Source of the DNA: Micromonospora chaiyaphumensis
Lineage (GTDB): Bacteria > Actinomycetota > Actinomycetes > Mycobacteriales > Micromonosporaceae
DNA length: 64,000 nt
Assembly (NCBI RefSeq): GCF_900091435.1
Contig: NZ_FMCS01000005.1
Coordinates: 1-64,000 of the forward strand
Reading direction: 5' to 3'
The number at the start of each line of letters is the position of its first letter. The stretch's first letter is position 1. A model generated the notes under the pieces. That model saw only the letters and a list, made by a program, of their open reading frames with translations. It made no database searches and was not told the DNA's origin. Below are positions 3,176 to 60,597 of this stretch, in pieces. Both the position numbers and the translations under genes were made by a program.

Positions 3176-3285
3176 CGCACCATTTCCGATCTGGGGCCGC
3201 GGCGGTGTCGCCGGATCACCGGCGCCATTCCGCCACCCCGTTTTCGCAGGTTGCTGGCTCAGGCCGGTGATTCTGCGGCACGACC

Positions 3286-36194: not shown

Positions 36195-36232
36195 CAGGCA
36201 GTGCTCCTCGGGTGTGCGGCGCGCGGCCGGGC

Positions 36233-36949
36233 TCAGGCGGACACGTCGACGGCCGCGGCGCCGACGACGGCCCGTTCCCCCTCCTGCTGCACGTAGCCGA
36301 TCACCGACGCCTGCGCGGGATCGAGGTCCGGCGGCACGGACAGCTCCACCCGGCCCTCCTCGGCGTTCAGGCCGACCGAGGTGAAGGCCCGCACGACGTT
36401 GTCCTGCCGCAACCGGCGGCCGGCGTTCTCGCCCCGGGGCACGTCGTTCTCCAGGCCGCGCTCCACGACCGCCACGTGCAGCATGCCCCGCGCGGGCGGC
36501 CGGTCGACCCGGTAGTCCACGGCCACGTGCCCGCCGCCCGCGTTCCCGACCGTCAGGGCGAGCGGCGCGGTGGCCGCCGCCGACAGCGCGGAGGTGATCG
36601 CGTCGGCCGCCCGCCGCCGGTCGGAGCCGACGAACTCGGCGGTGCCGTTGACCACCATCTGCGGCGTGTAGAGGTGCCCGGTGCCGAACGCCCGCGCGTA
36701 CGCCTCCTGCCGGGCCGTGTACGCCGCGGCCGCGTAGGGATCGGGCCAGCCCAGGTGGTCCCAGTAGTCGACGTGGAAGCCGAGGGCGAAGACGGGCTCG
36801 CCCCGCCGGCGGGCGTCCCGCTCGATCTCGGTCAGCACCTCCTCGGCGGGCGGGCAGCTCTCGCAGCCCTGCGAGGTGAACATCTCCACGACGGCGAAGC
36901 CGCCGTCGCCCGCCTGCGGCGGCGACCCGGTGGGCGAGAGGTCCGTCAT
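36233..36949 (-). CDS. DUF1223 thioredoxin-fold protein
   Basis: A 238-residue protein of the DUF1223 family. The opening strand carries the CxxC-type site FTSQGCESCPPAEEVL, then FHVDYWDHLGWPDPYAA, the cis-Pro region YTPQMVVNG, and a beta-sandwich C-terminal half. There is no signal peptide at the chosen ATG (36949, AGGAG site), so it is predicted cytosolic, although many homologues are exported. A redox role is inferred from the CxxC. It is 86 nt downstream of the PLP enzyme that ends the NRPS operon, so read-through from that cluster is possible. Confidence 0.85.
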   Translation of the reverse strand: MTDLSPTGSPPQAGDGGFAVVEMFTSQGCESCPPAEEVLTEIERDARRRGEPVFALGFHVDYWDHLGWPDPYAAAAYTARQEAYARAFGTGHLYTPQMVVNGTAEFVGSDRRRAADAITSALSAAATAPLALTVGNAGGGHVAVDYRVDRPPARGMLHVAVVERGLENDVPRGENAGRRLRQDNVVRAFTSVGLNAEEGRVELSVPPDLDPAQASVIGYVQQEGERAVVGAAAVDVSA

Positions 36950-37035
36950 GGCGTGGCTCCTGGCGTCCGTCGGTGCTGCTGGCGGCACTCCGATTCCCGT
37001 TGCCGCCCGGACCATGCACCGGCGCCCGCCCCGCG

Positions 37036-41200: not shown

Positions 41201-43484
41201 GGCGGCCCAGGTAGCGCAGCCGCCGGTCGGCGTCGAAACGGACCCGGTCGCCGGTCCGGTAGACCCGCGCGGTGCCACCGGACGGCAAGGCCACCTCGAC
41301 GAAGCGCCGGGCCGTGGCCTCCGGGTTGCCCAGGTAGCCGTCGGCGAGCTGCGGGCCGCTGACGCAGAGTTCGCCGGCCACGCCCGGCGGCACCGGCCGC
41401 AGGCGCTCGTCCAGCACCCACACCCGGACGCCCGGCAGCGGCCGGCCGATGGTCGGGGCGTCCCCGGCGCGGATCTCCGCGGCGCTGGTGTCCACGGTGC
41501 ACTCGGTCGGGCCGTACAGGTTGACGGCGCGGACGCCGGGCAGCGCCGCGACCGTGTCCCACAGGTCCGGCGGGACCGCCTCGCCGCCGAGCAGCAGCAG
41601 GCCGGGCAGCCGGGTGTCCCCGGCACCGGCGAGCAGGATGCGCAGCTGGGCGGGGGTCAGGTCGAGCACGTCGACGCCGTTGCCGGCCAGCGCGGCGGCG
41701 AGCGCCGCGCCGTCCCGGCGGACCTCCTCGGGCACCAGGTAGAGGCTGCGGCCGTGGCCGAGCTGCACGAGCTGCTTGACCGAGGCGTCGAAGGTGAGCG
41801 GGGCGTTCACGGCCACCCGCAGGCCGGGGTGGCTGCCCGCGTACACGGTCTGCTCCAGCGCGCCGGCGAGGTGCGCCGCGGCGCCGTGCGACACCTGGAC
41901 CGGGCGGGGCGTGCCGGTGGAACCCGACGTGAAGATCACGTACGCCGGGTCGGCCGGGACCGGCGCCGCGGCGGGCGGCGGACCGCCGGCCGCGACCAGG
42001 TCCGCGACGCTCACGGTCGCCGGGCCGCCGGCGCCGACGACGACCTCCGCGCCGACCGCCCGGAGCTGGGCGGCCAGGCGCGGCGCCGGGGCGTCCGGGT
42101 CCAGCGGCACGAACACGGCCCCGGCCCGCAGCACGCCGAGGAACGCCACGACGGTCTCCCGGGACCGGGCGGCCAGCACCCCGACCGGAGCGCCGGCGAG
42201 GCCACGCGCCGCGAGGGCACCGGCCACCCGGCCGGCCCGTTCGCGCAGCTCGTCGGCGGTGTACGCGCCGTCCGCGGCGACCACCGCCGGGGCATCCGCG
42301 GCCATCCCGGCGAGGCCCGCGTCCAGCAGGTCCACGAGGGTACGCGCGGCCACCTCGGAGGGGGTTCCGGCCGCGTCGGACAGCCAGCTGGCCTCCCCGT
42401 CGCCGAGGACGGCGAGCGGGGCGCCGTCGGTGAGCGCGGCGGGCAGGCTGCGCAGGACGGCCAGCAGCGCGTCGAGCAGCCACTGCCCGCCGATCACCCG
42501 CAGGACGACCCGGTCGCCCTCGGCCAGCGCGGTGAGCTGCGGGCCGGCAGCCGGTGCCGGGTCGGCGACCGTCACCTGCACGGCGCCGAGACCGGCCACC
42601 GTGGACGCGTCCACGGCGGGCAGCAGCGCGAAACCGGCGACCGCCCCGGACTGCTCGTCCACCGGGTCGACCAGGTGGAACGTCTCCTCGGCGGCGACCT
42701 CGGCGGCGCGGACGCCGGCCAGCAGGTCGGCGGGGGCGGCCGGCAACGGCAGGGCCAGCCGCAGCGGGCCGTAGCCGCCCAGCGGGCCCACCACCCCGGC
42801 GGTGCCGTCGGCCTGCCGGCCGTCGCTCCACCGGGCCAGCACCAGGTCCGCCTCGTCGGCCCCGTCCGGCGCCTCGGCCCGGCGGGACACGGCGACAGCC
42901 CAGGCGGCGAGCAGCACGGTGCCCGGCTCGACGCCCGCGGCCCGGGCCGCGTCGGCGAGCGCGGCGGCCGGCACCGTCGCGGTGACGATCGCGCTCGGGT
43001 CGTCCCCGGCCGGCGTGACCAGCCGGGCGGCCGGCGCGGCCGGCGCGCGGGCCGGCGCCTGCTCCCGCTCCTCCAGCTGCCACTCGGCGACGTCGAGGAA
43101 CTGCAACGCCTCCGGGTCCTCCGGCAGCACCTCGCCGGCGTACGCCTGAGCCAGGTCGGCCAGGACCAGCCGGAGGCTCGCCGGGTCGGCGATCAGCGGG
43201 GTGGCGGCCAGCTCCAGCGCGTCGTCGGTCAGCGTGACCGACAGGTCGCCCTGGGCCCCGACCGTCACGGCGCGGGCGTCGTCCACGTCCTGCAGCGGCA
43301 CCCGCAGCCCGGGGTGGTGCACCAGGGTCAGCCGCAGCGCCTCGTGCCGGGCCACCACCGTGTCGACGGCGGCCTGCAACCGGGCCCGGTCCAGCGGCCG
43401 GCCGAGCCGGACCCGCGCCCGGACCAGGTCCTGCTTCCCGGCCCAGGCCAGGCGCTGGATCGGCGACAGACGGTATCCGTTCAC
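38205..43484 (-). CDS. NRPS: degenerate C, A(Glu-like) interrupted by FkbM methyltransferase, T, C, T
   Basis: A 1,759-residue synthetase. Residues 1-360 are a shrunken condensation-like domain lacking HHxxxDG. The A domain runs from about 385 (YVIFTSGSTGTP; NLYGPTECTVDTS), and its hand-read code DAKDLGLVDK is one change from the glutamate code DAKDLGVVDK. Between A8 (RLDDQVKIHGFRVEPGEV) and A9 (LPAHLLP) sits an FkbM-type SAM methyltransferase, about 820-1090 (VLDVGANIGMFSLF, IDLLKIDVQRAEADVL). Next are a T domain (LGGDSIRSIQ, about 1189), a C domain with EYHGILDGWS in place of the canonical HHxxxDG, and a final T (AAGGDSLRAL, about 1720) with no A domain of its own and no TE. The start GTG overlaps the oxygenase stop by 4 nt. 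Confidence 0.93.
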   Translation of the reverse strand: MNGYRLSPIQRLAWAGKQDLVRARVRLGRPLDRARLQAAVDTVVARHEALRLTLVHHPGLRVPLQDVDDARAVTVGAQGDLSVTLTDDALELAATPLIADPASLRLVLADLAQAYAGEVLPEDPEALQFLDVAEWQLEEREQAPARAPAAPAARLVTPAGDDPSAIVTATVPAAALADAARAAGVEPGTVLLAAWAVAVSRRAEAPDGADEADLVLARWSDGRQADGTAGVVGPLGGYGPLRLALPLPAAPADLLAGVRAAEVAAEETFHLVDPVDEQSGAVAGFALLPAVDASTVAGLGAVQVTVADPAPAAGPQLTALAEGDRVVLRVIGGQWLLDALLAVLRSLPAALTDGAPLAVLGDGEASWLSDAAGTPSEVAARTLVDLLDAGLAGMAADAPAVVAADGAYTADELRERAGRVAGALAARGLAGAPVGVLAARSRETVVAFLGVLRAGAVFVPLDPDAPAPRLAAQLRAVGAEVVVGAGGPATVSVADLVAAGGPPPAAAPVPADPAYVIFTSGSTGTPRPVQVSHGAAAHLAGALEQTVYAGSHPGLRVAVNAPLTFDASVKQLVQLGHGRSLYLVPEEVRRDGAALAAALAGNGVDVLDLTPAQLRILLAGAGDTRLPGLLLLGGEAVPPDLWDTVAALPGVRAVNLYGPTECTVDTSAAEIRAGDAPTIGRPLPGVRVWVLDERLRPVPPGVAGELCVSGPQLADGYLGNPEATARRFVEVALPSGGTARVYRTGDRVRFDADRRLRYLGRLDDQVKIHGFRVEPGEVAAVLRGHPEVADAAVVARDDDGYGDRLVAYVRPGERPAPAVDVDRIAGVNPHETRYLYDEIFVQQVYLRDGIVLRPGATVLDVGANIGMFSLFVHAVCPDATIHAFEPVPSVVDVLRRNVAEFGVPATVHGFGLARAAGEVSFTYYPGYSMMSGHAAYADPDAEVAVIKRYLTNERDAGADERDVLLGRVDELLAERFAGRQLTVPVRPLSAVLDELAPERIDLLKIDVQRAEADVLAGLEDRHWPLIAQVAMEVHDAPGADTAGRLAELVALFEARGFTVVTRQDDLLAGTDRHTLHAVRPGYADDPRPAVVTAAAPAGGPLSERLSGWLADRLPAHLLPAAVVLLDELPLTRNGKLDRAALPAPRLGRPGAGVSPANRAEEILVEAWREVLGVADFGVTDSFFALGGDSIRSIQMQVAAQKRGLSFQLNDIFTHQTIRELVEHGQLNLDGVETGPGVAETGRFALVSAADRERLPGGLADAYPMTALQQGMVYHGELTGDPAMYHNVTAHRVAAPLDAAALRRALAGLVAAHPVLRTGFALGAYSEPLQLVHADVPVEVPVTDLAGADPQARRARIDDLVAEERARPFDWARPPLLRLHAVREDDDAFTLIVAEYHGILDGWSLHRFLTDLLAAYDGERAGRARPADPGLPFREYVAAERRALADPATRRFWLDGAGSARPLLLGGAQPRTTTTQRVPLRAGTTEAVGAAARAAGVPVKSWLFAAHLRLIGELAGRDDVVSGLVVGGRPEGEGSDATLGLFLNTLPVRVALGTRSPAELAAEVWRAERELMGHHRFPLAEIVRAGGAGPRFDHFFNWTHFPHGPADGGSRIVDSRGITVDVAFSLAVDAELDAGTGRLALTVQYDHRHVPAERVDALADGFRRLLAADPAAPLPPVAPAGPAAGDARGEWATRVAGAWQEVLGAAPRDPGTDFLAAGGDSLRALRLVTVLRQRHGSDLTLPEFTALGSYGALVDRVARS

Positions 43485-44497
43485 ACCACACTCCGATTGA
43501 CGTAGAGGTCGGACATGGCGACCAGGATCTGCCGGTCGCCGCTGAAGGGTTCCCGGCCGTGGGTGGCCAGGAAGTTGTCCACCACCAGCACGTCGCCGCG
43601 CTGCCAGGGCACCGAGACGGCGTGCTGCCGGTACAGCTCACGGATGCCGGTGACCACCTCGTCGGGGATCGGCTCGCCGTCGCCGTAGTAGGCGTTGCGC
43701 GGCAGGCCGTCCGGGCCGTACTCGCGCAGCAGCGCGCCGGACACCTCGGCCGGCATGTTGGAGACGTGGAACAGGTGGGCGTGGTTGAACCAGACCGTCT
43801 CCCCGGTCCGCGGGTGCGTGGCGACCGCCTGCCGCCGGGCCCGGGTCCGCAGCCCGTCCCCGCCCAGCCAGGTGAACTCGGTCGCCGAGGCGGCGCAGTA
43901 CGCCTCCACCTCGGCCCGGTCGGTCGTCTGGAAGGCCTCCTGCCAGGGCAGGTCCAGGTGCGGGCCGTAGTTGCGCACGTAGCTGACGCCGGCGCGGAGG
44001 AACCGCTCCCGCACGTCGGCCGGGATCAGCGGGGTGATGACCCGCTCGCTGGCCAGCGGGGTGGCCCCGCCGCTGCCGGTGGCCGGCTGCGCGCACCAGA
44101 AGTAGAGGAGGGTGGGCCAGTTGTGCGAGTACGACATCTCGTGGTGCAGCGGGATCCACTGCTCGGCGTTGAACTCGGTGGAGGTGAACACCCGGTCGGC
44201 GACCTCGTGCCGGGGGGCGGCCCGCTCCAGGTAGCCGAGCAGGTCCGGGCTGACCGCGCGGGCGGCCAGGCTGAAGTCGTCGGGGGTGCGCACCTCGAAG
44301 CCGCGGAAGAACACCGCGCCGTGGCGGTCCAGGTCGGCCAGCAGCTCGTCGTGGCGGCCGGCGAGCCAGGCCGCCAGGTCGAGGTCGGGCACGGCGGCCT
44401 CGACGAGCAGCACGAACTCCTCGTCCACGAGCACCCGCCGGGTCACCGGTGCGGTGACCGTGCCGGTGGCGCGCCGCCGCGGCCCCGGCCCGCTCAC
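43481..44497 (-). CDS. TauD/SyrP-like Fe(II)/2-oxoglutarate oxygenase, copy 1
   Basis: A 338-residue non-haem iron oxygenase. A probable facial triad is formed by His/Glu in IPLHHEMSYSHNWP (HxE) and the distal His in NFLATHGREPFSGDRQIL, with Arg as the 2-oxoglutarate anchor in the same segment. The overall layout (GAVFFRGFEV, WFNHAHLFHVSNMP) resembles SyrP-type amino-acid beta-hydroxylases that act on carrier-bound substrates. The start GTG at 44497 has GGGAGG 7 nt upstream and overlaps the stop of the other oxygenase (GTGA); its own stop overlaps the following NRPS start. It presumably hydroxylates a T-bound residue such as Asp/Asn or Glu (inference). Confidence 0.9.
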   Translation of the reverse strand: MSGPGPRRRATGTVTAPVTRRVLVDEEFVLLVEAAVPDLDLAAWLAGRHDELLADLDRHGAVFFRGFEVRTPDDFSLAARAVSPDLLGYLERAAPRHEVADRVFTSTEFNAEQWIPLHHEMSYSHNWPTLLYFWCAQPATGSGGATPLASERVITPLIPADVRERFLRAGVSYVRNYGPHLDLPWQEAFQTTDRAEVEAYCAASATEFTWLGGDGLRTRARRQAVATHPRTGETVWFNHAHLFHVSNMPAEVSGALLREYGPDGLPRNAYYGDGEPIPDEVVTGIRELYRQHAVSVPWQRGDVLVVDNFLATHGREPFSGDRQILVAMSDLYVNRSVV

Positions 44498-45567
44498 GCC
44501 CGGCCTCCCGCCGGGGTCGCCACGGCGCCCGCATCCAGAGCCCCGGTCAGCTCGGGCGCGGCGACCGGGTCGGACATCGCGGTGAGGATCCGCCGGGGCG
44601 AGGTGAACGGCTCCCGGGCGTGCGCGGCCAGCATGTTCTCCACCAGCAGCACGTCGCCGCGCTGCCAGGCGAAGGAGCGGGTCTCCGCGGCGTACGCGGC
44701 CCGCAGCTCGGCCAGCACGTCGTCGGGGATGGGCGTGCCGTCCCCGTACGCGGTCTGGTAGGGCAGGTCCTCGTCGCTCAGGGCGGCGCGCAGGCCGGCG
44801 CTGACGTCGTCGGGCAGCGAGGTGACGTGGAAGAACAGCGCGTGGTTGAACCAGGTCCGCTCCCCGGTGACGGGGTGGCGGCGCACCGCGGGACGGACCT
44901 GCCGGGTGCGCAGCTGCCGGTTGCCCACCCACTCCACGTCGATGAGCGCCCGGGCGCAGTACGCCTCGACCTCCTCGCGCCGCTCGGTCTGGAACGCGGT
45001 CTGCCAGGAGAGGCTGATGCCGGGCAGGTAGTTGCGCCGGTAGAGCACGCCGCGCCGCTCGAACTCGGCGACCGTCCCGGGGCGGAGCCGGGCCAGCACC
45101 CGGCGGCTGTCCGCGAGGGGGGTACGCCCGCCGGCGCCCGGCTCGACCTCGCAGTGGAAGACGATCCGCAGCGGCCAGTTCACCGTGTACGACTGCTCGT
45201 TGTGCAGCACGATCGGCTGGTCGGCCGGGTGCTCGGTGGAGGTGTACACCCCCTCGGTGATCTGGCTGCGCGGTGAGGAGCGTTCGCCGTAGGAGAGCAC
45301 GTCGTCGGAGAGGGCGGCCATCACGGTGCGGAAGTCGTCGGCGCCGGCCACGGCGAAGCCGCGGAACAGCACCGCCCCGGCCCGCCGGGCCAGCTCGTCG
45401 ACCTCGTCGCGGTGGCCGGCCAGCCAGCCGGGGAGGTCGACGTCGGGCACGTTGGCCCGCACCAGCGCCGGCAGCGGCCCGCCGGGCCAGTCGGGGCGCA
45501 CGTCCACCAGGTTCCGCTCGCGGCCGCGCCGGGGGATGGTCCGCGCGACCCGGTTCTGCTCAGTCAT
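44494..45567 (-). CDS. TauD/SyrP-like Fe(II)/2-oxoglutarate oxygenase, copy 2
   Basis: A 357-residue paralogue of the adjacent oxygenase. It has the same architecture: VLFRGFAVAGADDF, iron-binding IVLHNEQSYTVNWP (HxE), WFNHALFFHVTSLP, and distal His/Arg in NMLAAHAREPFTSPRRIL. The two copies are clearly related along their whole length but divergent, so this is an old tandem duplication rather than a recent one. It begins 3 nt after the stop of the A-T-C NRPS. Two hydroxylases imply two different hydroxylated positions or substrates in the product. SyrP-like activity is inferred from family resemblance. Confidence 0.9.
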   Translation of the reverse strand: MTEQNRVARTIPRRGRERNLVDVRPDWPGGPLPALVRANVPDVDLPGWLAGHRDEVDELARRAGAVLFRGFAVAGADDFRTVMAALSDDVLSYGERSSPRSQITEGVYTSTEHPADQPIVLHNEQSYTVNWPLRIVFHCEVEPGAGGRTPLADSRRVLARLRPGTVAEFERRGVLYRRNYLPGISLSWQTAFQTERREEVEAYCARALIDVEWVGNRQLRTRQVRPAVRRHPVTGERTWFNHALFFHVTSLPDDVSAGLRAALSDEDLPYQTAYGDGTPIPDDVLAELRAAYAAETRSFAWQRGDVLLVENMLAAHAREPFTSPRRILTAMSDPVAAPELTGALDAGAVATPAGGRA

Positions 45568-45570
45568 CTC

Positions 45571-48500
45571 TCACTCTCCAGCGGTGTCGGCGCAGTCGGC
45601 GAGACTGCGCCGGGGGTCGGCGGCGGCGGTACCCAGCACCGCGCCGAAGCGGCGGTGCCACGCGACCACGCCGTCGTGGTCGAACAGGTCGGTGCGGTAG
45701 GTCCAGAGCGCCTCGAGCCCGTCCCGCCGCTCGTCGAGCCAGAGGGTCAGGTCGAGCCGGGCGGTGTCCGGGGTGAGTTCCACACCGGTGAACTCGATTC
45801 CGGCCGCGCCCCGGTGCCGGGCCGGCGGGGCGTTCTGCACCCCGAAGGCCACCTGGACGAGGGGGTTGCGCCGGGGCCGGCGGGTGGGCCGCAGCCGCTC
45901 CACCAGCAGGTCGAAGGGCACGTCCTGGTGGGCGGCGGCGAACAGGGTGACCCGGCGGGCCTCGGCGAGGAGGTCGGCGAAGCTGCGCCCGGGGGCCGGC
46001 CGCAGCCGCAGCGGCAGGGTGTTGACGTGGCAGCCGACGCTCTGCTCGGCAGCGAGGCTGGTCCGTCCCGCGAAGGCGACACCGACGAGCAGGTCGCGCC
46101 GGCCGGTGGCGGCGCCGAGCAGGGTGGCGAACGCGGCCAGCCCGACCATGTGCAGGCTGGCGCGCCCGGCCCGGGCCAGGTCGCGGGCCGCTCCGGCGGT
46201 GGCGGCGTCCAGGGTGGTCCGCAGCGCGGCACCGGGCGGCGGGCCGTCCTGTGCGTCCAGGGTGGTCCGTGGCGCGGCGCCGGGTGGCGAGCCGTCGCCG
46301 GGTCGGCCGGCGGGCGGCGTGTTCCGCGTCGGCGCGGCGGCCGGAGCGGTCCAACCCTGCCGCGGTGGGGTGGTGGGGGGGTCGAGCAGGTCGGGGGCGC
46401 CGCGCACCTCGTCCAGCACCTCGGCGACCGCCCGCCGACCGGCCGGCCCGGCCAGCCAGTCGCGCTGGGCAACGGCGAACGCCGCCGGGCCGACCGCCGG
46501 CCGGTCGGGCGCCGCCGCCGGGTCGCCCGCGCGGTCGTACGCCTCGGCGAGGTCCCGCACGAGCACGCCGAACGACCAGTCGTCGCAGACGATGTGGTGC
46601 ACGACCAGCAGCAGCGCCAGCGCCCGGCCGGTGCCGTCCGGCACGAGGTGGGCGCGGAGCAGCGGGCCGGCGGCCAGGTCCATGGGCGCCCGGGTGGCCC
46701 CGGCGGCGAGCCGGCGCAGCCGCGCGTCGAGCGGCGCGCCCGGATCGGCGGGCGCGAGGACCGGCGCGGTGCCGGCGGCGGGGCGGACGTGCTGCACCGG
46801 CCCGTCCGGGCCGGACGGGAAGACCGTGCGCAGCGCCGGGTGCCGGTCCACCACCCGGCGCAGCGCCCGGGCCAGCCGGTCCGGGTCCAGCGGCGTGGCG
46901 AACCGGACCGCGAAGGCCAGCAGGTAGGAGGTGTCGGCCGGGTCGAGCCGGTGGAGGAACCAGAGCCGGGTCTGCGCGGCGGAGAGCGGGGCGGGACCGG
47001 CCGGCGCGGGGCCGGCCGGCTCGGCGACCGGCTCCGCGCCCTCGGCCAGCCCGTCGAGGTGGGCGGCCAGCGCGGCGACGGTCGGGTGGGCGAAGAGGTC
47101 GCCCGGCCGGACCGGCCGGCCGGTGGCGGCGGCCAGCCGGGTGGCGCAGCGGACCGCGAGCAGGGAGTCCCCGCCGAGGGCGAGGAAGTCGCTGTCGGCG
47201 CCGGTCACCGGCACCCCGAGCAGCTCCCGCCAGACCGTGGCCACCGTGCCGGCCGTGCCGTCGAGCGCGGCGGATGTGCCGTCGCCGAGGGCCGGTGCGG
47301 GCAGGGCCGAGCGGTCCACCTTGCCGTTGGGCAGGGTGGGCAGCCGGTCCAGCCACACCACGGCCGCGGGGACCAGCGGGGCGGGCAGCGCCTCGGCCAG
47401 CCGGGCGCGGACGTCGTCGCGCCGCTCGCCCACCAGGTAGCCGACCAGCAGCGGGTCTCCGCTCGGTCCGGGCCGCACGGCGGCGGTCGCCTCGCGTACG
47501 CCGGGCAGGGCGGCGAGGCGGGCCGCCACCTCGCCCAGCTCGATCCGGTAGCCCCGCAGCTTCACCTGGTCGTCGAGCCGGCCCAGGTACGCGAGCTGCC
47601 CGTCCGGCCGCAGCCGGACCCGGTCTCCGGTGCGGTACATCCGCTCGCCGGGCCGGAACGGGTCCGGCAGGAACCGGGCGTCGGTCTCCTCCGGCCGGTC
47701 GAGATAGCCCCGGGCCAGGCCCGCCCCGGCCAGGTGCAGCTCGCCCGGCTCGCCGGGCGGGACCGGCTGGCCGGCCGGGTCGAGGACGTAGGCGCGGGTC
47801 CGCGGCAGCGGCCGGCCGATCGGCGTCCGGCGGCACCTCGGCCCAGGTCGAGTAGGTGGTGTCCTCCGACGGGCCGTAGAGGTTGCAGAGCCGGCGGACG
47901 TGCGGGCGGGACCAGACGCGGGCGGCCAGTGCGGCGGTCAGCGGCTCGCCGGCCAGGCAGACGGTGCGCACGCTCGCCGGCAGGGCCTCCGCGGTGAGCA
48001 GTTCGCCCATGGCCGAGGGCACGGTGTTGACCAGCGTGACCGGCAGCCGCTCGGCGCCGGGGGCCGCGAGCGCCAGCACGTCGTCGACCAGCAGCACCCG
48101 GCCGCCCCAGCAGAGCGGGCCGAAGATCTCGAACACCGACAGGTCGAAGCAGACCGAGGTGGCGGCGAGCAGGCCGCCCAGTTCGGCGTCGTCGAAGGTC
48201 TGCCGGACCCAGTGCATGAGCACTGAGGCCGAGCGGTGCTCGATGGCCACACCCTTGGGCCGTCCGGTGGATCCCGAGGTGTAGATGACGTACGCCAGGT
48301 CCGCCGGTGTGACGGGCGCCGTCGGGTCGGTCGGGTCCTCGACCGGGTCGAGCCGGTCGACGGGGACGGCCGTCTCGGGGAACCGGCCGGCGAGGTCGGT
48401 GCGGGTCAGCACCAGCCGCACGCCGGAGTCGGCGGTCATGAACGCCACCCGGGCCGGCGGGTACGCCGGGTCCAGCGGCACGTAGGCGGCGCCGGCCTTG

Positions 48501-48793
48501 AGCACGGCGAGCAGGGCGACCACCAGCTCGGGGGTCCGCGGCAGGCAGACGCCCACCCGGTCCTCCCGGGTCACCCCGCGCCGCAGCAGCACCCGGGCCA
48601 GGCGGTTCGCCGCCTCGTCCAGCTCCTGGTAGGACAGTGCGTGGTCGCCGTGCCGGACCGCCTCGGCCTCCGGGGTGCGGGCGGCCTGCGCGGCCACCAT
48701 CCGGTGCAGGCAGTCCACGGTGGCCGGACCGCCGGTCGCGCGGCGGCCGGTGCTCCGGCGGGTCGGGCCGGCGGGCCGGGTGGGGGCGCTCAC
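45571..48793 (-). CDS. NRPS A(Ala-like)-T-C, frameshifted in this sequence
   Basis: About 1,070 residues if the frame is restored. The frame from the GTG at 48793 (AAGGGG site; overlaps the megasynthase stop by 4 nt) encodes an A domain through [14 protein letters not shown] and [19 protein letters not shown]. At about 47820 the coding signal jumps to another minus-strand frame, which continues [15 protein letters not shown], then [28 protein letters not shown], a T domain ([10 protein letters not shown]) and a C domain with HHIVCDDWS, to the stop at 45571. The hand-read code DLFNCALTYK fits alanine-type codes. As an A-T-C protein it is a natural loading module. Either the gene is broken, or there is a base-call error in a GC-rich stretch; intact domains on both sides favour the latter or a very recent mutation. 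Confidence 0.88.
47812..47836 (-). other. frameshift site inside the NRPS A domain
   Basis: Between A-domain cores A5 and A6 the codons GTG-CCG-CCG-GAC are followed by one extra base relative to CCG-ATC-GGC-CGG-CCG (PIGRP). The net shift is +1 (or -2). The surrounding sequence is a GC-rich run of CGGCCGGCCG, prone to sequencing error. Confidence 0.8.
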
Positions 48794-51700
48794 CGGCGGG
48801 CCCCTTCGCTGCGCAGCAGCGCGAGCCGCCGATCGGCCTCCTCCTGGAGCCGGTCCTTGTCGGCCAGGATGATCGTGCCGGGGTCGTTGTCGGGCAGTTC
48901 GTCCTCCACGTTCCGGATCGGCCGGTAGGCGATGCCCGCGGCGGCCAGGGCCAGCGCGCACAGCCCGGCCACGATCGCCGCGAGGGCCATGCCGCGTCCG
49001 GGGCCGGTGCCGACGACGCCGGCCAGCACGCCGCCGGGAGCGGCCAGCGGGGCGAAGACGTGCTCGGCGAGCGGGCCGGCGCTGAGGAAGCCGGCCGGCA
49101 CCATGAGCCAGGACAGCATCTGCCCCATGGACAGCACCCGGCCCTGGAGTTCGAGCCCCACCTTGGCCTGCACGATGGCGAGCCAGTGGGTGTTCACGAG
49201 CGCCGTGGCCAGGCCCATGCCGAACAGGCCGAGCGCCGGGAACAGCGGGCTGGGACGCAGGCCGACGGTGAGCAGCGAGACGCCCAGCAGCACGACGCCG
49301 GCCAGGATCCCGGTGGTACGCCGGGCCGTGCCGCCCCACACGCCCATGAGCACCGAGCCGACCACCATGCCCACGCCGCTGGCGGCGAGCACCCGGCCGA
49401 GCACCGCCGGGTCGCCGAAGGACAGCGTCAGCGGGGTGACCAGGACCTCGACCATGGCGAAGAAGTAGTTCAGCGACGCGACCAGCACCACGAGGGCGAC
49501 CAGGCCGTGCCGGCGGACGATGAACCGCCAGCCGCCGAGGACCTCCCGCCGGAACGGCTCCTCCCGCTTGACGAACAGGGTGTCCGGGAAGCGGACCGAC
49601 AGGGTGACGAGCACCGCCACGGCGAAGGTGAGCAGGTCGATGACGACGATCCCGCGCAGCCCGACGGCGATCACCAGCGCGCCACCGACCAGTGGCGCCA
49701 GCACGGTGCTGGTGGCCGTGCCGAGCGAGACGATGCCGTTGGCCCGCCCGTAGTACCGCTTCGGCACCAGTTGCGTGACGGCCGCCAGGTAGGCGGGTTG
49801 CTGGAACGCGGTGGCCACCGCCGTGACGGTGATCGCCGTGAACACCTGCCAGAGCTGGAGCTGACCGAGCCAGAGCAGCAGCGCGAGGCTCACCGTGCCG
49901 GTGGCGGCCAGGCAGTCCGCGAGGATCATGATGCGTCTGCGGTCCCACCGGTCGGCGAGCGCGCCGGCGACGGGGGACAGGACCACGGCGGGCAGCAGCG
50001 CCAGCACGGTGGCCGTGGCGAACAGCGACACCGACCCGGTGCGCTGGTAGACCCACAGGCTCATGCCGAAACCGGTGAGCCCGCTGCCGATGAGCGAGAC
50101 GAGCTGACCGATCGCGATGAGGTAGAACACCGCCAGGCTCGGCATGGCGCGGCGCGGGGCCGCCGGCTGCTCGCGCGGTGGCGCGGGCGCGGGTTCGGGC
50201 CCGGGCGCGGCCTCCGGCGTCACGGGCGGCGCGGCGCAGTGCGCCAGGATGATGTCCGCCAGTTCGGCCGGCTGGTGCTTGGCGAAGTAGTGGCCGGCGC
50301 CTTCGATGACCTCCAGCGACACCCGGTCGGCGAAGAACTCCCACTCCAGGTACCGCTCCTGGTACAACTCCGTGGCACGGTCGCCGCTACCCACGACGCT
50401 GACCAGCGGCGCCGACAGCTTCCGGGGCAGGCCCCCGGCGTAGGCGTCGGTGTAGTAGTCCTCGCCCTTCGCCGAGTCGGCCAGGACCACGCGCATCACG
50501 AAGTCCTTCTCGTTCTCGTCGAAGACCTCGGTGAAGAAGCCCATGGCGCGCAGCGACTCCAGGGTGCGCCGCTTCGACGTCCAGCGCTCCACCGGGAACC
50601 ACCGCCGCAGCCAGCCGAACACCCGGCCGGGCAGCCGCGGGGCGGGGAAGTGGGCCCCGATGACCACGCCGGTCACCTCGACGCCGGCCACCTCCAGCCG
50701 GCGGGCCAGCTCGACCGCCTCGGCGCCGCCCACACAGTGCCCGTACACCGCCACCGGGCCGGTGATGTTCTCGACCACCTCGGCCACGCAGCCGTCGACC
50801 AGCTCGTCCAGGCCGAGCAGGGGCTCGTCCGGTCGGTTCACGTCGTGGCCGGGGCGCTCCAGGGCGTGGAGCGAGACACCCGCCGGCAACGCGTCGGCCA
50901 GGGGCTGGAACGTGACGGCGCTGCCGCCACCGAACGGTACGCAGACCAGGGTGAGCGTCGTCGGCGTGCCCGGCCGAGCCGGGGTCAGCTCGTGCAGCAG
51001 GCGCCCGACGGAGCCCCCGGTCGCCGCCAGGTGCTCGGTCAGGCCCCGGATCGTCGGGTGGCGGAACAGGTCGAGGACACTGATCGCCGGGTCGCTGCCG
51101 GCCAGGGCCTTGATCGCCTTGAACGAGTCGCCGCCGAGGTCGAAGAAGTCGTCGTCGATGCCGACGCTGCCGTACCCGAGGACCGCCGCCCACCGTTCGG
51201 CCAGGGCCCTGCGCAGCGGGGTGTCCGGCGGGGCGGCGCCGACGGCGGCCCCACCGCGGCGGGGCGCGGGCAGGGCCGACCGGTCGACCTTGCGGTTGGC
51301 GTTGAGCGGCATCCGGTCGAGCACCACGAACGCCGACGGCACCATGTAGTCCGGCAGGTAGGTGCGGGCGAAGGCCCGCCACGGCGCTGCGTCGACATCG
51401 AAGTCCGCGGTGACCTCCGGCGGCTCCGGGCCGGCGTCGCCGCCGGGGCCGGTCAGGGTCAGGTACGCCACGATGGACTTCTCGTCGCCGTCCTCGCGGA
51501 CCACCACGGCGGCGTCGCGGACCGACTCGTGGCGGCGCAGCACCGCCTCGATCTCGCCCAGTTCGATGCGGAACCCGCGCACCTTGACCTGCGAGTCGGT
51601 GCGGCCGACGAACTCGATGCGGCCGTCGGCCAGCCGCCGGCCGAGGTCGCCCGTGCGGTAGAGCCGTCCGCCGCCGTCCGGGTCCGGCACGAAACGCTGG

Positions 51701-54700
51701 GCGGTCAGCGCCGCGTCGCCGTGGTAGTCGCGGGCCAGCCCGGCGCCGCCCAGGTACAGCTCACCCAGCACGCCCACCGGGGTGGGGGCGAGCCGCGCGT
51801 CGAGCACGTGCACGCGCATGTTGCCGATCGGGCGGCCGATGGTGAGCCGCGTGAAGCCCGGCTCGATCCGCTCCATGGTGGACCAGACGGCCGCCTCGGT
51901 CGGGCCGTAGAGGTTCCACAGCGCGTCCACCCGTTCGGCCAGTTGCCGGGCCAGCGGCGCCGACACCGCCTCGCCGCCGCACACCGCGGTCAGGCCGGGC
52001 GTCCCGGCCCAGCCGGACTCGATGAGCAGCCGCCAGGTCGCCGGGGTGCCCTGGGCCAGGGTGACCCCCTCGGTGCGCAGCAGGCCGGCCAGCCGGGGCG
52101 CGTCGTAGGCGACGTCGCGGCCCACCAGCAGCATCCGGGCGCCGACCACCAGGGGCAGGAACAGCTCCGGCACCGACATGTCGAAGGCGAAGCTCGCCAT
52201 CGCGAGCATGGTGCCGTCGCCGGTCAGGCCGGGCCGCTCGCGCATGGTCGCCAGGGTGTTCACCACGGCGCCGTGGCTCACCCGAACCCCCTTGGGGCGG
52301 CCCGTCGAGCCGGACGTGTAGATGACGTACGCGAGGTCGTCCGGACCGGCCGCCACCTCGGGGTCGGTCGCCGGCTCGGCGTCCAGCGCCGCGCCTCCGC
52401 ACACCACCTCGCCCGCGAAACCGGTGAACCGGTCCGCCAGGCCCGCCTCGGTGACCAGCACCCGGGCGTCGCTGTGCGCCAGCACGTACCGCTGCCGCTC
52501 GACCGGGTAGTCGGGGTCCACCGGCACGTACGCGCCGCCGGCCTTGAGCACGCCGAGCAGGGTGACCGGCAGTTCCTCCGAGCGGTGCAGGCAGACCGCC
52601 ACCGTGACGTCCGGCCCGACGCCCGCCCGGCGGAGCCGGTGCGCGAGCCGGTTGGCACGGGCGTTCAGCTCGGCGTAGCTGAGCGTGGTCGCACCGAAGG
52701 CCACGGCGGGGCGGTCGGGCCGCGTCGCGACCTGGTGGGCGATCAGGTCCACCAGGGTGGGCCGGCCCGGCACCGGCCAGCCCGGCTCGGTGGCGGTGTC
52801 GTTCCACCCGGCGAACCGGTCCCGCTCGGCGGGGGTGAGCACGGCCAGGTCCGCGAGCCGGACGTCGGGGTCGGCGACGGCCGCGGCCAGCAGCGTCTCC
52901 AGGTGCCCCATCATCCGCTCGGCGGTCCCGGCGTCGTACAGCGCGGTGTTGTACTCCAGCCGGAACCGCAGCCCCTCGTCCACCTCGTACGCGTAGAGGG
53001 CCAGGTCCTGCTGCGCGATGCCCGGCTCGACGGCGAACGGGACCATCCGCAGCCCGGTCGTGCCCAGCTCCCGCTGCTCGGGCACGTTGAGCAGGTTGAA
53101 CATCACCTGGAACAGCGGGTTCCGGCTGAGGTCGCGGGGCGCGTCGACGAGGTCCACGAGCCGCTCGAACGGCACCTCCTGGTGGTCGTACGCCCCCAGC
53201 GCCGTGCGCCGCACCTCGCCGAGCAGTTCGGCGAAGGTCCAGTCGCCGTCGAGCACGGTGCGCAGCGGCAGCATGTTGACGAAGAAGCCGACCATCGGTT
53301 CGAGCTCGGCGCGGACCCGCCCGGCGACCGGCGTGCCGACGCAGATGTCGCGCTGCCCGGTGTAGCGCCAGAGCAGGGCCTTCAGCGCGGCCAGCACGGT
53401 CATGGCCAGGGTGGCGCCCCGGGCCTGGCTGAACCGGCGCAGCCCGTCGGCGGCCCCCGCCGGCAGGAGCCGGGTGCTGACCGCGCCGTCGAAGGTCTGC
53501 ACGGGTGGGCGGGGCCGGTCGGTGGGCACCTCCAGCACGCTCGCCACCCCGTCGAGCTGCCCGCGCCACCAGCGCAGGTCGTCGTTGTCCGGGTCGGCCA
53601 GCCGGCCGCGCTGCCAGCGCGCGTAGTCGCCGTACTGCACGGCCAGGTCGGGCAGCGGCGCGGGGCGGCCCTCCCGGGCGGCGTCGTAGAGGGTCGCGAG
53701 TTCGCCGGCGATGATACCGAGCGACCACCCGTCGGAGACGTTGTGGTGCATGGTCAGCGAGAGCACGTGCCGGTCGTCGGCGACGCGGAGCAGCACGGCC
53801 CGGAACAGCGGCCCGGCGGCCAGGTCGAAGGGGCGCCGGACGTCGGCGGCCAGCGCCGCGTGCACCCAGCCGGGCAGCGCGTCGGCGACCGCCGGCTCCA
53901 CGATGCTCCGCGGGGCCGGCGCGTCGTCCGCGTCGTCGGGGGCGGTCAGCACCGGCAGGTCGACCGGTCCGGCCGGCCGGACCTCCTGGACCGGGTCGCC
54001 GTCGGGGCCGGGCGGGAACACGGTACGCAGCGACTCGTGCCGCCGGACCAGCTCGGCGAGGGCCCCGCGCAGCGCGCCGACGTCGAGGTCCCCGTCCAGC
54101 AGCAGCGCGGTGCTTACCGTGTACGCGTTCTGCGCGTACGCCTGGTCGAGGAACCACAGGCGGTGCTGGCCGGAGGAGAGCGGCGCCGGACCGGCGCCGG
54201 GATCGGCGCGGGGGATGGCCGGTTCCACGGGCGCGGCGGGGGCCGGCTCGGCCACGGCGGGCGCGGCGGGCGCGCCGACGGTCGCCGGCAGCGCCGCCGC
54301 GATCCCGGCGACGGTCGGCTGGGCGAAGACCGTCTCCAGCGGCAGCGCCACGCCGAGCCGGGCCCGCAGCCGCACCACGACCTGGGTGGCGAGCAGGGAG
54401 TGCCCGCCCAGCTCGAAGAAGTTGTCGTGTGCCCCGATCGGCCGGATGCCGAGCAGTTCGGCCCAGATCTCCGCCACGCGTTCCTGCGCCGGCGTGCCGG
54501 GGGCGACGTAGGCGGTGCTCAGGGCCGGCCGGTTGCCGGCGTCGACGGGCTCGGGGGCGGCCGGCGCGTCCGGTGCTTCGGGCCCCGGGAGGGTCGCCGC
54601 GCCGGAGCGCGGGGCCGCGTCCACCCAGTACCGCCGCCGTTCGAACGGGTAGCCGGGCAGGGCCAGCCGGCGGCGCCCGCCGCCGTGGAACCGGGCCCAG

Positions 54701-57700
54701 TCGACCGGCGCGCCGGCCAGCCACAGCCGGCCGACCGCGTCGAGCAGCGTGGTGAGGTCGTCGGCGTCGCCGCGCGGGTGCCGCATGGCCGCCACGGCCT
54801 GGCCCGGTCGCAGGCCGGCCAGCCGGGCCAGGCCCCCGAGGGCGTGCCCGGGGCCCAGCTCCGCGAGGACCACGTCCTGCTCGGCGAGGAGCGCGGCCGA
54901 CTCGGCGAACCGCACCGGCTCGCGCATGTGCCGCACCCAGTACGCCGGGTCGGTGACCTGCCCCGGGGTGACCGGGCCGCCGGTGAGGTTGCTCAGGTAG
55001 GGGCGCTCCGGCTCGTGGTAGGTGACCCGGCGGGCGTGCTCCGCGAACTCGTCGAGCACCGGGTCGAGCAGGGCCGAGTGGTAGCCGCGGGCGACCCGCA
55101 GGGGCCGGCAGTCGACCCCGTCGGCGATGAGCCGCTCCCGCAGCGCCCCGACCGCCTCCGGGTCACCGGAGACCACGCACAGCTCCGGGGCGTTGACGGC
55201 GGCCAGCGCGATCCGGTCGTCCAGCAGGACGGCCACCGCGGCCTCGGGCCGGCTCACGGCGAGCATCGCCCCGGCCGGCGTCCGCTCGACCAGCGCGCCC
55301 CGGGCGCAGACCAGGCGCAGCGCGTCCTCCAGCGAGAAGACGCCGGCCAGGCAGGCCGCCACGTACTCGCCGAGGCTGTGCCCCACCATGAGGTCCGGGG
55401 TCACGCCCCGGGCGAGCAGCGACCGGGCGAGCGCGTACCCGGTGACGAAGAGCGCGGGCTGCACGAGCCGGGGCTGCGCGAGCAGCCGCTCGGCCCCGGT
55501 GTGGCCGTCCGGTGCCGGGCAGAGCACCGTGCGCAGGTCCAGCCCCAGGTCGTCGCGGACCAGGTCGGCGCACTCGTCCACCACGGCCCGGTAGGTCGGC
55601 TCGTCGCGGTAGAGGCCGGCGCCCATCGCCACGTGCTGGGCGCCGTGCCCGGGGAAGGCGAACACGAGCGGCCGCCGGCCGCCGGGGTGCACGCCGGTGA
55701 ACTGCCGCTGCGGCGTGTCGAGGGCGGCCAGCGCGTCGGCGCGGTCCGCCGCGACGAGGAACCGCCGGTGGGGCATGGACTGGCGGCGGCCCAGGTTGGC
55801 CGCGACGTCGGCGAGCTCCACCTCGGGCCGCCCGGCGAGCCAGTCGCGGAGCCGGTGGGCCTGCCGGTCCAGCGCCTCACCGGTACGCGCCGACACGACC
55901 AGCAGGTGCGGCCCCGCGACCGGCTCGACCGGCGGCGCCGGTGTGGCCGGCGGCTCCTCCAGCACCACGTGCGCGTTGGTGCCGCCCATGCCGAACGAGC
56001 TGACCCCGGCCCGGCGCGGGCCGTCGACGGTCCACGGACGGGCGCTGTCGGTGAGGTAGAACGGGCTGCCCGCGAAGTCGATCGCCGGGTTGGGCTCGCT
56101 CACGTTGATCGCCGGCGGCAGCGTACGGCTCCACAGGGCCATGACCGTCTTGATGAGACCGGCCACCCCGGCGGCGGCGTCGGTGTGCCCGATGTTGGCC
56201 TTGACCGAGCCGAGGGCGCAGAAGCCGCGGTCGTCCGTGCCGCGCCGGAACGCCTCGGTCAGCGCGGCCACCTCGATGGGGTCGCCGAGGCTGGTGCCCG
56301 TCCCGTGTGCCTCGACGTAGCTCACCGAGCGGGGGTCCACGCCGGCCGTGGCCAGCGCGCTGCTGACCACCTCGACCTGGCCCGCGACGCCGGGCGCCGT
56401 GTAGCCGGTGCGGCGCGCCCCGTCGTTGTTGATCGCGGAACCGCGGATCACCGCGTAGACCGTGTCGCCGTCGGCGACCGCGTCCTCCAGCCGCTTCAGC
56501 GCGACGATGCCGACCCCGCTGGACTCGATGCTGCCGCGCGCGTCCGCGCTGAACGGGCGGCAGTGCCCGTCGGGGGAGTAGATCCCGCCGTCGTGGTAGA
56601 GGTAGCCGCGGCGCTGGGCCGGGAAGATGCTGACACCGCCGGCCAGGACCAGGTCGGACTCGCCGGTCAGCAGGCTCTGCCGGCCGAGGTGCACAGCCAC
56701 CAGCGACGTCGAGCAGGCCGTGGCGACGGTGACCGCCGGGCCGGTGAGGTCGAGCTTGTAGGCGACCCGGCTGAGCAGGAAGTCCTTGTCGTTGCTGATC
56801 GAGAGCTGGTGCTCGCCGATGGTGCCGGCCAGCTCGGGGTGGCCGCTCAGGTGGTCGAGCAGGTAGCTGCTGCGTCCCGATCCGGCGAAGAGGCCGACCC
56901 GGCCGGGACGGCGGGACGGGTCGTGGCCGGCGTGCTCCAGCGCGTGCCAGGCGCACTCCAGCAGCAGCCGGTGCTGCGGGTCGAGGGTCTGCGCCTCCCG
57001 GGGCGTGATCCCGAAGAAGGCCGCGTCGAACTCGTCGATGCCCGGCAGCCAGGTGCCGGCCCGGACGTACGCCGGGTCGCCCAGCCGGTCGGGGTCCGCC
57101 CCGGCGGCGAGCATCTCCTCGACGCTGAACTCCCGGACCGACTCGACGCCGGTGCGGATGTTGTGCCAGTACTCGTCGACGGTGCGCGCGCCGGGGAAGC
57201 GGCAGGCCATGCCGACGACGGCGATGAGGCCGCCCGGCCGGCCGGTGTCCTCGTGGGCGCCGACGCGGGCGGCCGGGGCCGGCGCTGCGGCCGGCGCGGG
57301 CGCCCCGGTGGTGGCGGTGGTCAGGAACGTGGCCAGGGACTCGACCGTGGGGTGCCGGAACAGGTCGGTGACCGTGACGACGTCGCCGAGCCGGTCGCGC
57401 AGCCGTTCGAGGACGGCGAGCAGCCGCATCGAGTGGCCGCCGAGGTCGAAGAAGGTGTCCCGCACCCCGACCCGGTCGACGCCGAGCACGTCGCGCCACA
57501 CGTCCATGACCAGCCGCTCCAGGCGGACCCGGGCCGCGTCCCACCCGTCGGGCGCGGGTGCCGGCGGTGCGGGGGCGACCGGCCGGGGCTCGGGTGCGGA
57601 CCGCTGCCGGGGCACGTCCGCCGCGCGTCCGGGAGCGGGCAGCGCTGCGGTGTCCACCTTGCCGTTGCCGGTCAGCGGCAGCGCGTCGAGCCGGACGAAC

Positions 57701-60597
57701 GCGGCGGGCACCAGATAGGACGGCAGGTCGGCGGCGAGCGCCGCGCGCAGGTCCGCGACGTCGGTCCCGGTCCCGCCCGCGAGGTACGCGACGAGCTGCG
57801 GGTCGTCCGGATCGTCCCGGCGCAGCTGCACCGTCACGTCCAGCTCCGGCCGGCAGCGGCGGACGGCCGCCTCGATCTCGCCGCACTCCACGCGGTAGCC
57901 GCGCAGCTTGACCTGGCGGTCGGTGCGGCCGAGGTATTCGAGGTGCCCGTCCGGACGCAGGCGGACCAGGTCGCCGGTGCGGTAGAGCCGGGCGCCGGGC
58001 ACCGCCGAGAACGGGTCCGGGACGAACCGCTCGGCCGTCAACCGCGGCTGGTTCAGGTAGCCGCGCGCCACGCCGGCCCCGCCGACGTACAGCTCGCCGA
58101 CCACGCCCGCCGGGACCGGGTTCCGCCACGCGTCGAGCACGTACAGCCGGGTGTTGGCGATCGGCCGTCCGACGGGGACGGAGCCGTCCTCGGGCGAGGC
58201 GGGATCGACCTCGTACGCGGCGCAGCCCACCACGGTCTCCGTCGGCCCGTACTCGTTGACCAGCGCGGTGCCGGGCGCGTGGGCCCGCCACGGCGCCACC
58301 TGGTCGGCGCGCAGGTTCTCGCCGCCGATCACGAAACACCGGGTGCGGCCGGCCAGCTCGGCGGGGCGGAGCTGGTGGCGGACCAGGTCGAGCTGCGCCG
58401 GGGTGATCTTGACGAGCCCGAACGGGGTCCGCTGCTCGCGCAGCGCCTCGCCCAGTGCCTCGGGGCCGAGGTGCTCGCCGATCATCCGCACGGTCGCCCC
58501 GCTGACCAGCGGAACCAGCAGGCTCGTCACGGTCAGGTCGAACCCGATCGACGAGTGCAGCGGGACGACGTCACCGGGCCGCAGCCGGTAGGCCTGGGCG
58601 GCCCAGCGCACGTAGTTGCACACGCCGCGGTGGGTGACCATGACACCCTTGGGGCGGCCGGTGGAGCCGGAGGTGTGGATGACGTACGCCAGGTCGTCCG
58701 CCGACGGCTGCGGCCGGCGGCGGGCGCGCCGCCGCGGCCCGCCGTTCCGGGCCGGTTCGACGGCTGGGACCGGCGTGTCGGGACCCGGCACCAGAAGCGC
58801 CGTGCCGTCGGGCACCAGGTGCGCCAGCTCGGCGCAGGTCAGCACGACCGGCGCGGCGGCGTCCGCGATCAGGTACCGCAGCCGGGCCGGCGGGTTGGCC
58901 GGATCCATGGGTACGTAGGCGGCGCCGGTCCGCAGCACGGCGAGGACCGCCACGGCGAACGGGACCGCGCGGGGCAGCAGCACCCCCACCAGGCTGCCGA
59001 TGCCGACGCCCCGCCCGCGCAGCGTCTCCGCCAGCGCCTCGGCCCGGGTGTGCAGCTCCTGGTAGCTCAGCGCGGCGGAGCCGTCGGTCACCGCCACGGC
59101 GGCCGGGGTCTCCCGCGCCTGTCGCTCGATCAGCAGGTGGACCAGGTCGTCGGGCTCGGCGGGCGTGGCCGTGCGGTTCCACTCGCCCACGAGCTGCCGG
59201 TGTTCGTCGGGGGTGAGCATCGCGGCCGCGCCGACCGGCGCGCCCGGGTCGGCCAGCAGCGAGCGCAGCAGCGTCCGGAAGTGCCCGGCGAGGCGGGCCA
59301 TGGCGTCGGCGTCGAACAGGTCGGTGCGGTATTCCAGCGCCGTGCGCAGGCCGTCGGCGTTCTCGCGGACCGCGACCGTGAGGTCGAACTTGGCGGTGTC
59401 GATCGGCACCTCGACCGGGGTGACCTGGAGGTCGTCCAGGCGCGGGGGCGTGGCCTCGCGGCCGTAGACGAACATCACCTGGAACAGCGGGGTGTAGCCG
59501 GGCCGGCGGGGTGGGCGCAGCGCCTCCAGCACCGTCCCGAAGGGAAGCTCCTCCCGGCTCAGGCCCTCCAGCGCGGCGGTGCGCACCCGCCCGAGCAGCG
59601 TCTCGAACGACGGGTCGTCGTCCAGGCGGGCCCGGACGGCGACGGTGTTCAGCAGCAGCCCGACGAGCCGCTGCGTCTCGGGCCGCCGCCGGTTGGCCAC
59701 CGGCGTGCCCACCACGATGTCGCGCTGCCCCGTCCACCGCGCCAGCAGCACGTGCAGCGTGGCCAGCAGGACCATGTACGGGGAGACCCGCGCCCGGTGG
59801 CACAGCGCCGCGAGCGCCTCGGCGTCGACGTCGAGCGGCACCGACAGGGTGGCTCCCGCGCTGGACGGAACGGTGGGACGCGGCGCCCGGGTGGGCAGCT
59901 CCAGCACGGCCGGCGCGTCCGCGAACTCGGTGCGCCAGTGGTCGAGCTGGGCGGCCGCCTCCGGACCGTCGAGCCACTCCCGCTGCCGGACCGCGTGGTC
60001 GCGGCAGTCGGCCTCGACGGGGTCGAGGTGCGCCGGCCGGCCGGCGCGGTGCGCGGCGTAGAGCCGTTCCCACTCGTCGTGCAGGAGCCCGAGCGACCAC
60101 TCGTCGACCGCGACGTGGTGGAAGGTCAGCAGGAGGACGTGCTCCTCCGGGGCGCACCGCAGCAGGAGGGCGCGGACCACGGGGCCGCGCTCGAGGTCCA
60201 CGGGGGTGTGCGCCTCGGCGTGCATCCGGGCCTGGAGCTCCTGGTCGCGCTGCCAGGTGGGCAGCCCGCTCAGGTCGTGCACGCGCAGGAGCCCCGGGCG
60301 GGCCTCGTGGACCACCTGGACCAGGTGCCCCGCGTCGTCGCCGGGCGCGCCGTCGCCCGCCGGGGCGAGGGTGGTACGCAGGGCGGCGTGCCGGGCGACC
60401 AGGTCGTCGAAGGTGGCCGACAGGGCCGCCACGTCCAGCGGGCCGTGCAGCCGGTACGCCAGCGGCACCAGGTAGGTGGTCGTCCCCGGGTCGAGTCGGC
60501 TCAGCTGCCACATCTGGTGTTGTGCCGCGGAGGCCGGAGCAGGAGTCGCGTCGGCCAGAAAATTGCCGGCGTCGACCCTTGTGATCAGTGTTTTCAT
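48790..60597 (-). CDS. hybrid NRPS/PKS megasynthase C-A-T-KS-AT-T-C-A-T-TE fused to an MFS exporter
   Basis: About 3,935 residues from the ATG at 60597 ([11 protein letters not shown]); an upstream ATG at 60642 is possible, and neither has a strong ribosome site. Residues below count from 60642. C1 is 30-470 (HHVAVDEW), A1 490-1000 (code DLTKVGEVGK, Asn/Asp type), T1 LGGHSMRLL near 1071. KS is 1135-1560 with Cys1310 in TACSTSL plus EAHGTGT and NIGHT. AT is about 1640-2005 (PGHGAQ, GHSLGEY Ser1756, RGYH in place of HAFH; malonyl likely). There is no KR, DH or ER. T2 is near 2082, C2 2120-2560 (HHNVSDGWS), A2 2580-3090 (code DMPQVGLVWK, uncertain, Gly-like), T3 [10 protein letters not shown] near 3170. 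The TE is 3220-3470, with Cys3303 in YGHCVGG and His in GAGHYF. A Pro/Ala linker then leads to a 12-TM MFS domain (3500-3920; motif [12 protein letters not shown]). It is the first gene of the operon. Confidence 0.95.

Follow-up and report, generated by a model that had tools for sequence, protein, structure and literature searches.

A thioesterase and an MFS transporter joined in one continuous assembly-line protein of Micromonospora chaiyaphumensis, and a recurrent family of such fusions

The route by which a non-ribosomal peptide synthetase (NRPS) product leaves its final carrier domain and then the cell is mostly unknown; the transporter is as a rule encoded by a gene of its own and is assigned to a synthetase by guesswork from gene neighbourhood. 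In the soil bacterium Micromonospora chaiyaphumensis, a stretch of 64,000 nucleotides (contig NZ_FMCS01000005.1, positions 1 to 64,000; the window) encodes an assembly line whose thioesterase (TE) appeared to run on into an MFS transporter, raising the questions of whether the two are one protein, how they came together and whether release and export are coupled. An earlier note on this DNA had read TE, Pro/Ala linker and MFS in one frame with no stop codon, and this was confirmed as a single ORF of 3950 residues with the domain order C-A-T-KS-AT-T-C-A-T-TE-MFS and no internal stop (Table 1). Pfam matches in the ORF were Condensation (two), AMP-binding (two), KS, AT, PP-binding (three), Thioesterase (from residue 3231) and MFS_1 (3509-3847)/MFS_3 (3504-3869), with C-A-T-TE on one polypeptide as in a terminal NRPS module with a type I TE. 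The linker contained 11 Pro and 8 Ala among its 29 residues. An AlphaFold2 model from a 51-sequence alignment (mean pLDDT 88.3) gave a TE, a low-confidence linker (about 61-66) and an MFS fold, the orientation of TE to MFS carrying no confidence, so that no docking was read from it. Codes of the adenylation domains were obtained by alignment to a GrsA reference, which returned its own known code, and the substrate names used here are our reading of those codes.

Table 1. The fusion gene and its parts, with positions in the window and residues of the encoded protein.
Feature	Position	Strand	Remarks
NRPS-PKS-TE-MFS fusion protein, 3950 aa	48790..60642	-	single ORF, ATG start
Condensation domain 1	59203..60546	-	residues ~33-480, approximate
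Adenylation domain 1	57643..59127	-	residues ~506-1000; code DLTKVGEVCK, Asn/Asp-like
Ketosynthase	56101..57225	-	residues 1140-1514
Acyltransferase	54853..55665	-	residues 1660-1930; no ketoreductase before next carrier domain
Carrier domain	54289..54483	-	residues 2054-2118
Condensation domain 2	52819..54186	-	residues 2153-2608
Adenylation domain 2	51289..52740	-	residues 2635-3118; code DMPQVGLVWK, nearest Gly-like codes
Last carrier domain	51025..51207	-	residues ~3146-3206
ObiF-type thioesterase (assigned from sequence)	50233..51015	-	residues 3210-3470
Nucleophile Cys3303 codon (GHCVGG)	50734..50736	-	from alignment
Triad Asp3421 codon (position II)	50380..50382	-	from alignment
Triad His3451 codon	50290..50292	-	from alignment
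Pro/Ala linker	50146..50232	-	residues 3471-3499
In-frame ATG (Met3500), MFS start	50143..50145	-	without SD-like sequence; not conserved
MFS exporter domain (predicted)	48793..50145	-	residues 3500-3950

Third-position GC, taken in blocks of 25 codons, was 0.92-1.0 throughout the last T domain, TE, linker and MFS. Compared with a 95% relative, dN/dS was 0.17 for the TE and 0.11 for the MFS against 1.05 for the linker, which indicates that both domains are kept whilst the linker drifts yet stays open, and among about 100 frames of relatives the linker ranged from 13 to 89 residues with the frame never broken. The earlier note had named two ways in which the fusion could prove false, an independent translation start before position 50145 giving a separate MFS protein and a sequencing error hiding a stop, and both were tested. 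For the first, an in-frame ATG does mark the very first codon of the MFS domain, both in the window and in the relatives L003 and L004, but the sequence upstream of it in the window (GCCCCGCGCCG) had nothing Shine-Dalgarno (SD)-like in it and the Met was not conserved, the residue at this place in L005-L008 being A, T, T and R. Among 104 distinct fused frames, only two combined an ATG and an SD-like sequence close to the junction, and 15 had no ATG, GTG or TTG in the region; the uniform codon bias across the linker also speaks against a separate start. Internal initiation was rejected as a general explanation on the missing SD and the unconserved Met, and we regard a separate MFS made from ATG 50145 as very improbable. 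A stop hidden by sequencing or assembly error is of negligible probability: 11 bases are missing from the adjacent NRPS gene, perhaps through an assembly error, but the TE-MFS junction was open in orthologues (95, 91 and 88%) and in about 100 further TE-MFS frames of relatives from other assemblies, which rules out an error at this point. An apparent stop within the relative G022:C1:6331595 was an alignment effect, its frame being open. At the level of sequence, the fusion of TE and MFS in one continuous protein is confirmed, and from it follows that the TE of the assembly line is anchored to the membrane, as was also put forward before.

The solved structure closest to the TE by sequence was ObiF1 (6n8e, E 1.5e-36), which was also the best TE match by structure (Z 33.4, rmsd 2.0 over 242 residues, 35% identity), with the SulM thioesterase at a Z of about 30; NcmC was absent from the PDB sequence matches to the window's TE at E<=0.001. 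Cys3303, Asp3421 and His3451 aligned with the ObiF triad, Cys1146-Asp1254-His1284 (PMC6668435; the ObiF chain in the PDB match is numbered 20 higher), and were invariant in alignments A1 and A5. Cys3303 lies in a GHCxG motif as does the nucleophile of ObiF/SulM-type enzymes, and Asp3421 occupies position II (after strand beta-7), which among NRPS TE structures is the Asp position of ObiF1 and SulM only (PMC11298585); in the AlphaFold2 model, it follows strand 204-209 and there is no Asp after strand 114-120. By these sequence features, the TE is assigned as ObiF-type, with a Cys nucleophile and its Asp in the rare position II. ObiF1 (obafluorin, a beta-lactone) and SulM (sulfazecin, a beta-lactam) share both of these features with it, but the papers on them describe no fused transporter and the terminal residues predicted for the window differ from theirs. 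GHC was the motif in 105 of the 106 fused TE sequences that were counted; the one with GHS (L120, Streptomyces sp. NRRL S-31) was nested within the fused clade, as a natural Cys-to-Ser change. The Cys was also found in unfused sister TEs (L134-L137, Azospirillum, Caballeronia and Vibrio), so it predates the fusion and is alone no argument for coupling.

The previous description of the C-terminal part as a full MFS protein held, with a complete MFS domain (MFS_1, 114 bits against a cut-off of 33.4, covering 1-343 of 347) and SotB, a drug:proton antiporter, as the nearest structure (Z 34.6, 368 residues); a PDB sequence search with the MFS gave no match. The best NCBIfam match, along the full model, was the H+ antiporter family TIGR00900 (2A0121; E 8e-63), at 212.9 bits against a curated cut-off of 319.6, a resemblance and not membership, and further matches were to MefA (121 bits) and, via its MFS part, to the LplT-Aas model (PRK08633). 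The EntS equivalog model scored 85.4 bits against a cut-off of 324. The earlier label of an EntS-like drug exporter therefore fits only loosely: judged by these scores, the domain is no EntS orthologue and resembles drug:H+ antiporters (TIGR00900, SotB) rather than EntS proper. A siderophore pathway with an EntS-type exporter was rejected on the missed EntS cut-off, and the neighbours of the Asp, Orn, Gly and Ser subfamilies held no siderophore signature among the 25 families listed per group, a weak indication.

By phylogeny, the fused TEs formed one clade (SH-aLRT 98), in which the sole 'unfused' member, L012, was cut by a contig end, and all 41 fused MFS domains in the MFS tree likewise formed one clade (99) with subclades as in the fused TE clade. 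The TE and MFS trees agree, and on this evidence the fusion seems to have had a single origin. Pairwise identities across 81 fused proteins correlated at 0.81 for TE with MFS (Mantel test, 0 of 500) and 0.80 for A with C, compared with 0.59-0.64 across the two blocks; the higher TE-MFS value suggests that TE and MFS act as a cassette, in part decoupled from the C-A block that precedes them. Terminal A codes across the fused subfamilies were DVWHISLIDK (Ser), DLTKIAHVSK (Asp-like), DMGEIGAVDK (Orn-like) and DILQLGMIWK (Gly-like), and the proteins ranged from a single-module C-A-T-TE-MFS to KS-containing hybrids. Among the nearest unfused MFS relatives were two from Nostocaceae (AVA_RS27930/AVA_RS27925 and L6494_RS27260/L6494_RS27265), 42 and 38% identical and directly downstream of a TE-ending NRPS; unlike in the window, NRPS and MFS have a gene each, with 14 and 1 bases between the two, and the TE is of Ser type (GWSMGG, GYSFGS). 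Ancestry aside, such an adjacent pair could be what the arrangement looked like before fusion. In another genome of the genus an unfused MFS of the wider family adjoins a free-standing thioesterase with the motif YGASMG (L132, 6851-9268).

That NRPS-MFS fusions are rare, as had been supposed, did not hold, since the fusion recurs: relatives were present in 60 of 101 genomes of the genus (E<=1e-100), and a scan with one genome per species gave 488, of which 80 were kept, all 80 covering TE and MFS. In these 80 of 488, from which the list of taxa was drawn, the carriers were mostly Actinomycetota (Micromonospora, Nonomuraea, Streptosporangium, Amycolatopsis, Nocardia, Streptomyces, Kitasatospora, Frankia and others), the non-actinomycete ones being two Paenibacillus (Bacillota) and Chloroflexota and Moraxellaceae MAGs, where binning may err. 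Among 396 evenly drawn Actinomycetota genomes the fusion was found in the window's own genome only, which indicates that it is bound to certain clades, and named loci with a TE-MFS part at least 70% identical to that of the window were all from Micromonospora. The window's genome has a second TE-MFS fusion on another contig (L039, G000:C2:271651-273840), C-A(Ser code)-T-TE-MFS, of a fused subfamily common in the genus. In Streptomyces shenzhenensis (L108, 11251-12543) and Frankia tisae (L118, 2600-3805) a methyltransferase domain follows the MFS (TE-MFS-MT), placing the exporter mid-way in a biosynthetic polypeptide.

The reading that we favour, and consider fairly probable, is that a ring-closing Cys TE held at the membrane hands its product to its own MFS exporter, forming a release-and-export cassette. 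The chain would pass from the last carrier domain to Cys3303 and would be released by attack from within the molecule, closing a ring, and not by water; with the TE sitting at the inner membrane face, the product would be freed close to the transporter and would be expelled through proton antiport by the attached MFS. The cell would gain in two ways, the cytosol being spared a reactive product and pump and synthetase being held at a 1:1 ratio. The MFS probably exports an antibiotic-like molecule released by the fused TE, and this TE is likely the final step of the whole pathway, as no second TE was found in the NRPS genes examined of the cluster, which encodes three NRPS proteins. That release and export may be mechanistically coupled is only indirectly supported, through the single origin, the co-divergence and the purifying selection on both domains.

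These observations bear also on a simpler role for the MFS, as an anchor or dosage device which holds the synthetase at the membrane in fixed stoichiometry while the product diffuses and is exported without a hand-over from TE to MFS. A linker that drifts freely and varies this much in length implies that no precise docking geometry is required, and the cereulide synthetase is membrane-held by a transporter that it needs for its location (PMC7527721). The closer divergence of TE and MFS with each other than with A or C suggests a shared substrate and argues against mere anchoring, but would also fit mere physical linkage; we judge an anchor-only MFS to be rather unlikely. In both CesAB-CesCD (cereulide, ABC transporter) and PpsE-MmpL7 an assembly line touches a transporter at the membrane (PMC7527721), as proposed for the window, but these contacts are non-covalent, involve other transporter families and, for CesAB, are made via C domains and not the TE.

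As to what the TE of this release-and-export cassette would make, no KR was present in any of the 27 KS-bearing fused frames (window included), and a KS-AT-T without KR followed by C-A-T-TE predicts a beta-ketoacyl-aminoacyl chain on the TE (a KR in trans being possible). Such a thioester is the usual precursor of 3-acyl tetramates, and malonomycin, a tetramate from a similar module order, may offer a lead. Dieckmann condensation to a 3-acyl tetramate is tentatively the likeliest closure for the window's clade, a prediction from module order that stands somewhat short of an even chance. TE-like Dieckmann cyclases use Cys-Asp-His (PMC10956176), and the tetramate cyclases NcmC, TrdC and BpdE share this triad and the alpha/beta-hydrolase fold with the window's TE, acting on the substrate class that is predicted for its clade (PMC10956176), but they are free-standing and have a four-helix-bundle subdomain. 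The main chemical rival to a tetramate is a beta-lactone, which ObiF chemistry would form if the terminal residue were beta-hydroxylated, with the exporter protecting the cell from the electrophile. This would fit ObiF1 being the closest relative by sequence and fold with the same triad, the two TauD-type dioxygenases in the cluster and the terminal Ser code of another fused subfamily; however, the code of the window's terminal A domain lies close to Gly-like ones and that of a related clade is read as Gly, a residue that has no beta-hydroxyl, and a ring would close more easily by way of the KS module that lacks a KR. The existence of a Gly-like clade speaks against a beta-lactone as the general outcome, and for the window we think it unlikely. 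Ring closure in the other fused subfamilies, with Ser, Asp-like, Orn-like or Gly-like terminal A domains, may differ.

Quite improbable is a task for the MFS other than export of the TE product, such as conferring self-resistance or taking up either a precursor or the product itself; the likeness to drug-efflux pumps such as MefA, and a second, separate MFS gene in the cluster, would suit it, but in all fused relatives read the MFS follows the release domain, and this and the H+ antiporter likeness favour export. The separate MFS makes up the C-terminal part of the ORF 34995-37019, at the cluster's far end, so the cluster may hold two exporters.

The gene next after the fusion encodes an A-T-C NRPS (45571-48793, minus strand), its GTG start overlapping the fusion's stop as GTGA. 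Compared with a 95% relative (L032), its A domain has lost 11 bases near 47826, giving a frameshift, and related genomes are without this deletion; the gene may be a pseudogene or carry an assembly error. If the deletion is real, the pathway in this strain may be dead or silent with the fusion gene intact. The NRPS genes are followed by two tandem TauD-type dioxygenase genes (43481-45567), whose products possibly hydroxylate a carrier-bound residue. In the NRPS at 38205-43484, an FkbM-type methyltransferase lies next to AMP-binding C-terminal pieces, in what may be an interrupted A domain; the N-terminus of the protein is only vaguely C-domain-like.

Known systems offer partial likenesses. EntF of the enterobactin pathway has the same C-A-T-TE order and EntS weakly matches the window's MFS, but EntF and EntS are separate proteins, the window's MFS falls below the EntS cut-off, and the EntF TE nucleophile is a Ser. 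The LplT-Aas fusion (PRK08633) also joins a transporter to an enzyme acting on its substrate, as does MprF, a transporter/flippase; these belong to lipid metabolism, and LplT-Aas has no assembly line and matches through its MFS part only. A relation to detoxin/rimosamide was dropped, no MFS being mentioned in the paper on these that was searched. Some database entries carry names such as 'non-ribosomal peptide synthetase/MFS transporter', and no description of an NRPS-TE-MFS fusion was found in the literature searched, a search with many subscription papers outside it. As far as found, what is new is a recurrent and apparently unstudied NRPS-TE-MFS architecture, its domains and the TE type being known.

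It is conceivable, if somewhat doubtful, that TE-MFS proteins constitute a distinct 'export-terminated' class of assembly line, in which a Cys TE would pass a strained or reactive product into the attached antiporter, making release and export one step, and in which the cassette would have been passed among assembly lines whose terminal modules differ. As synthetase and transporter are covalently bonded, the pump for a given release enzyme is known and coupling becomes directly testable. In engineering, the TE-MFS cassette might be built into assembly lines that are meant to secrete what they make, and the TE-MFS junction together with the GHC motif provides a search handle for some hundreds of clusters for which no description was found.
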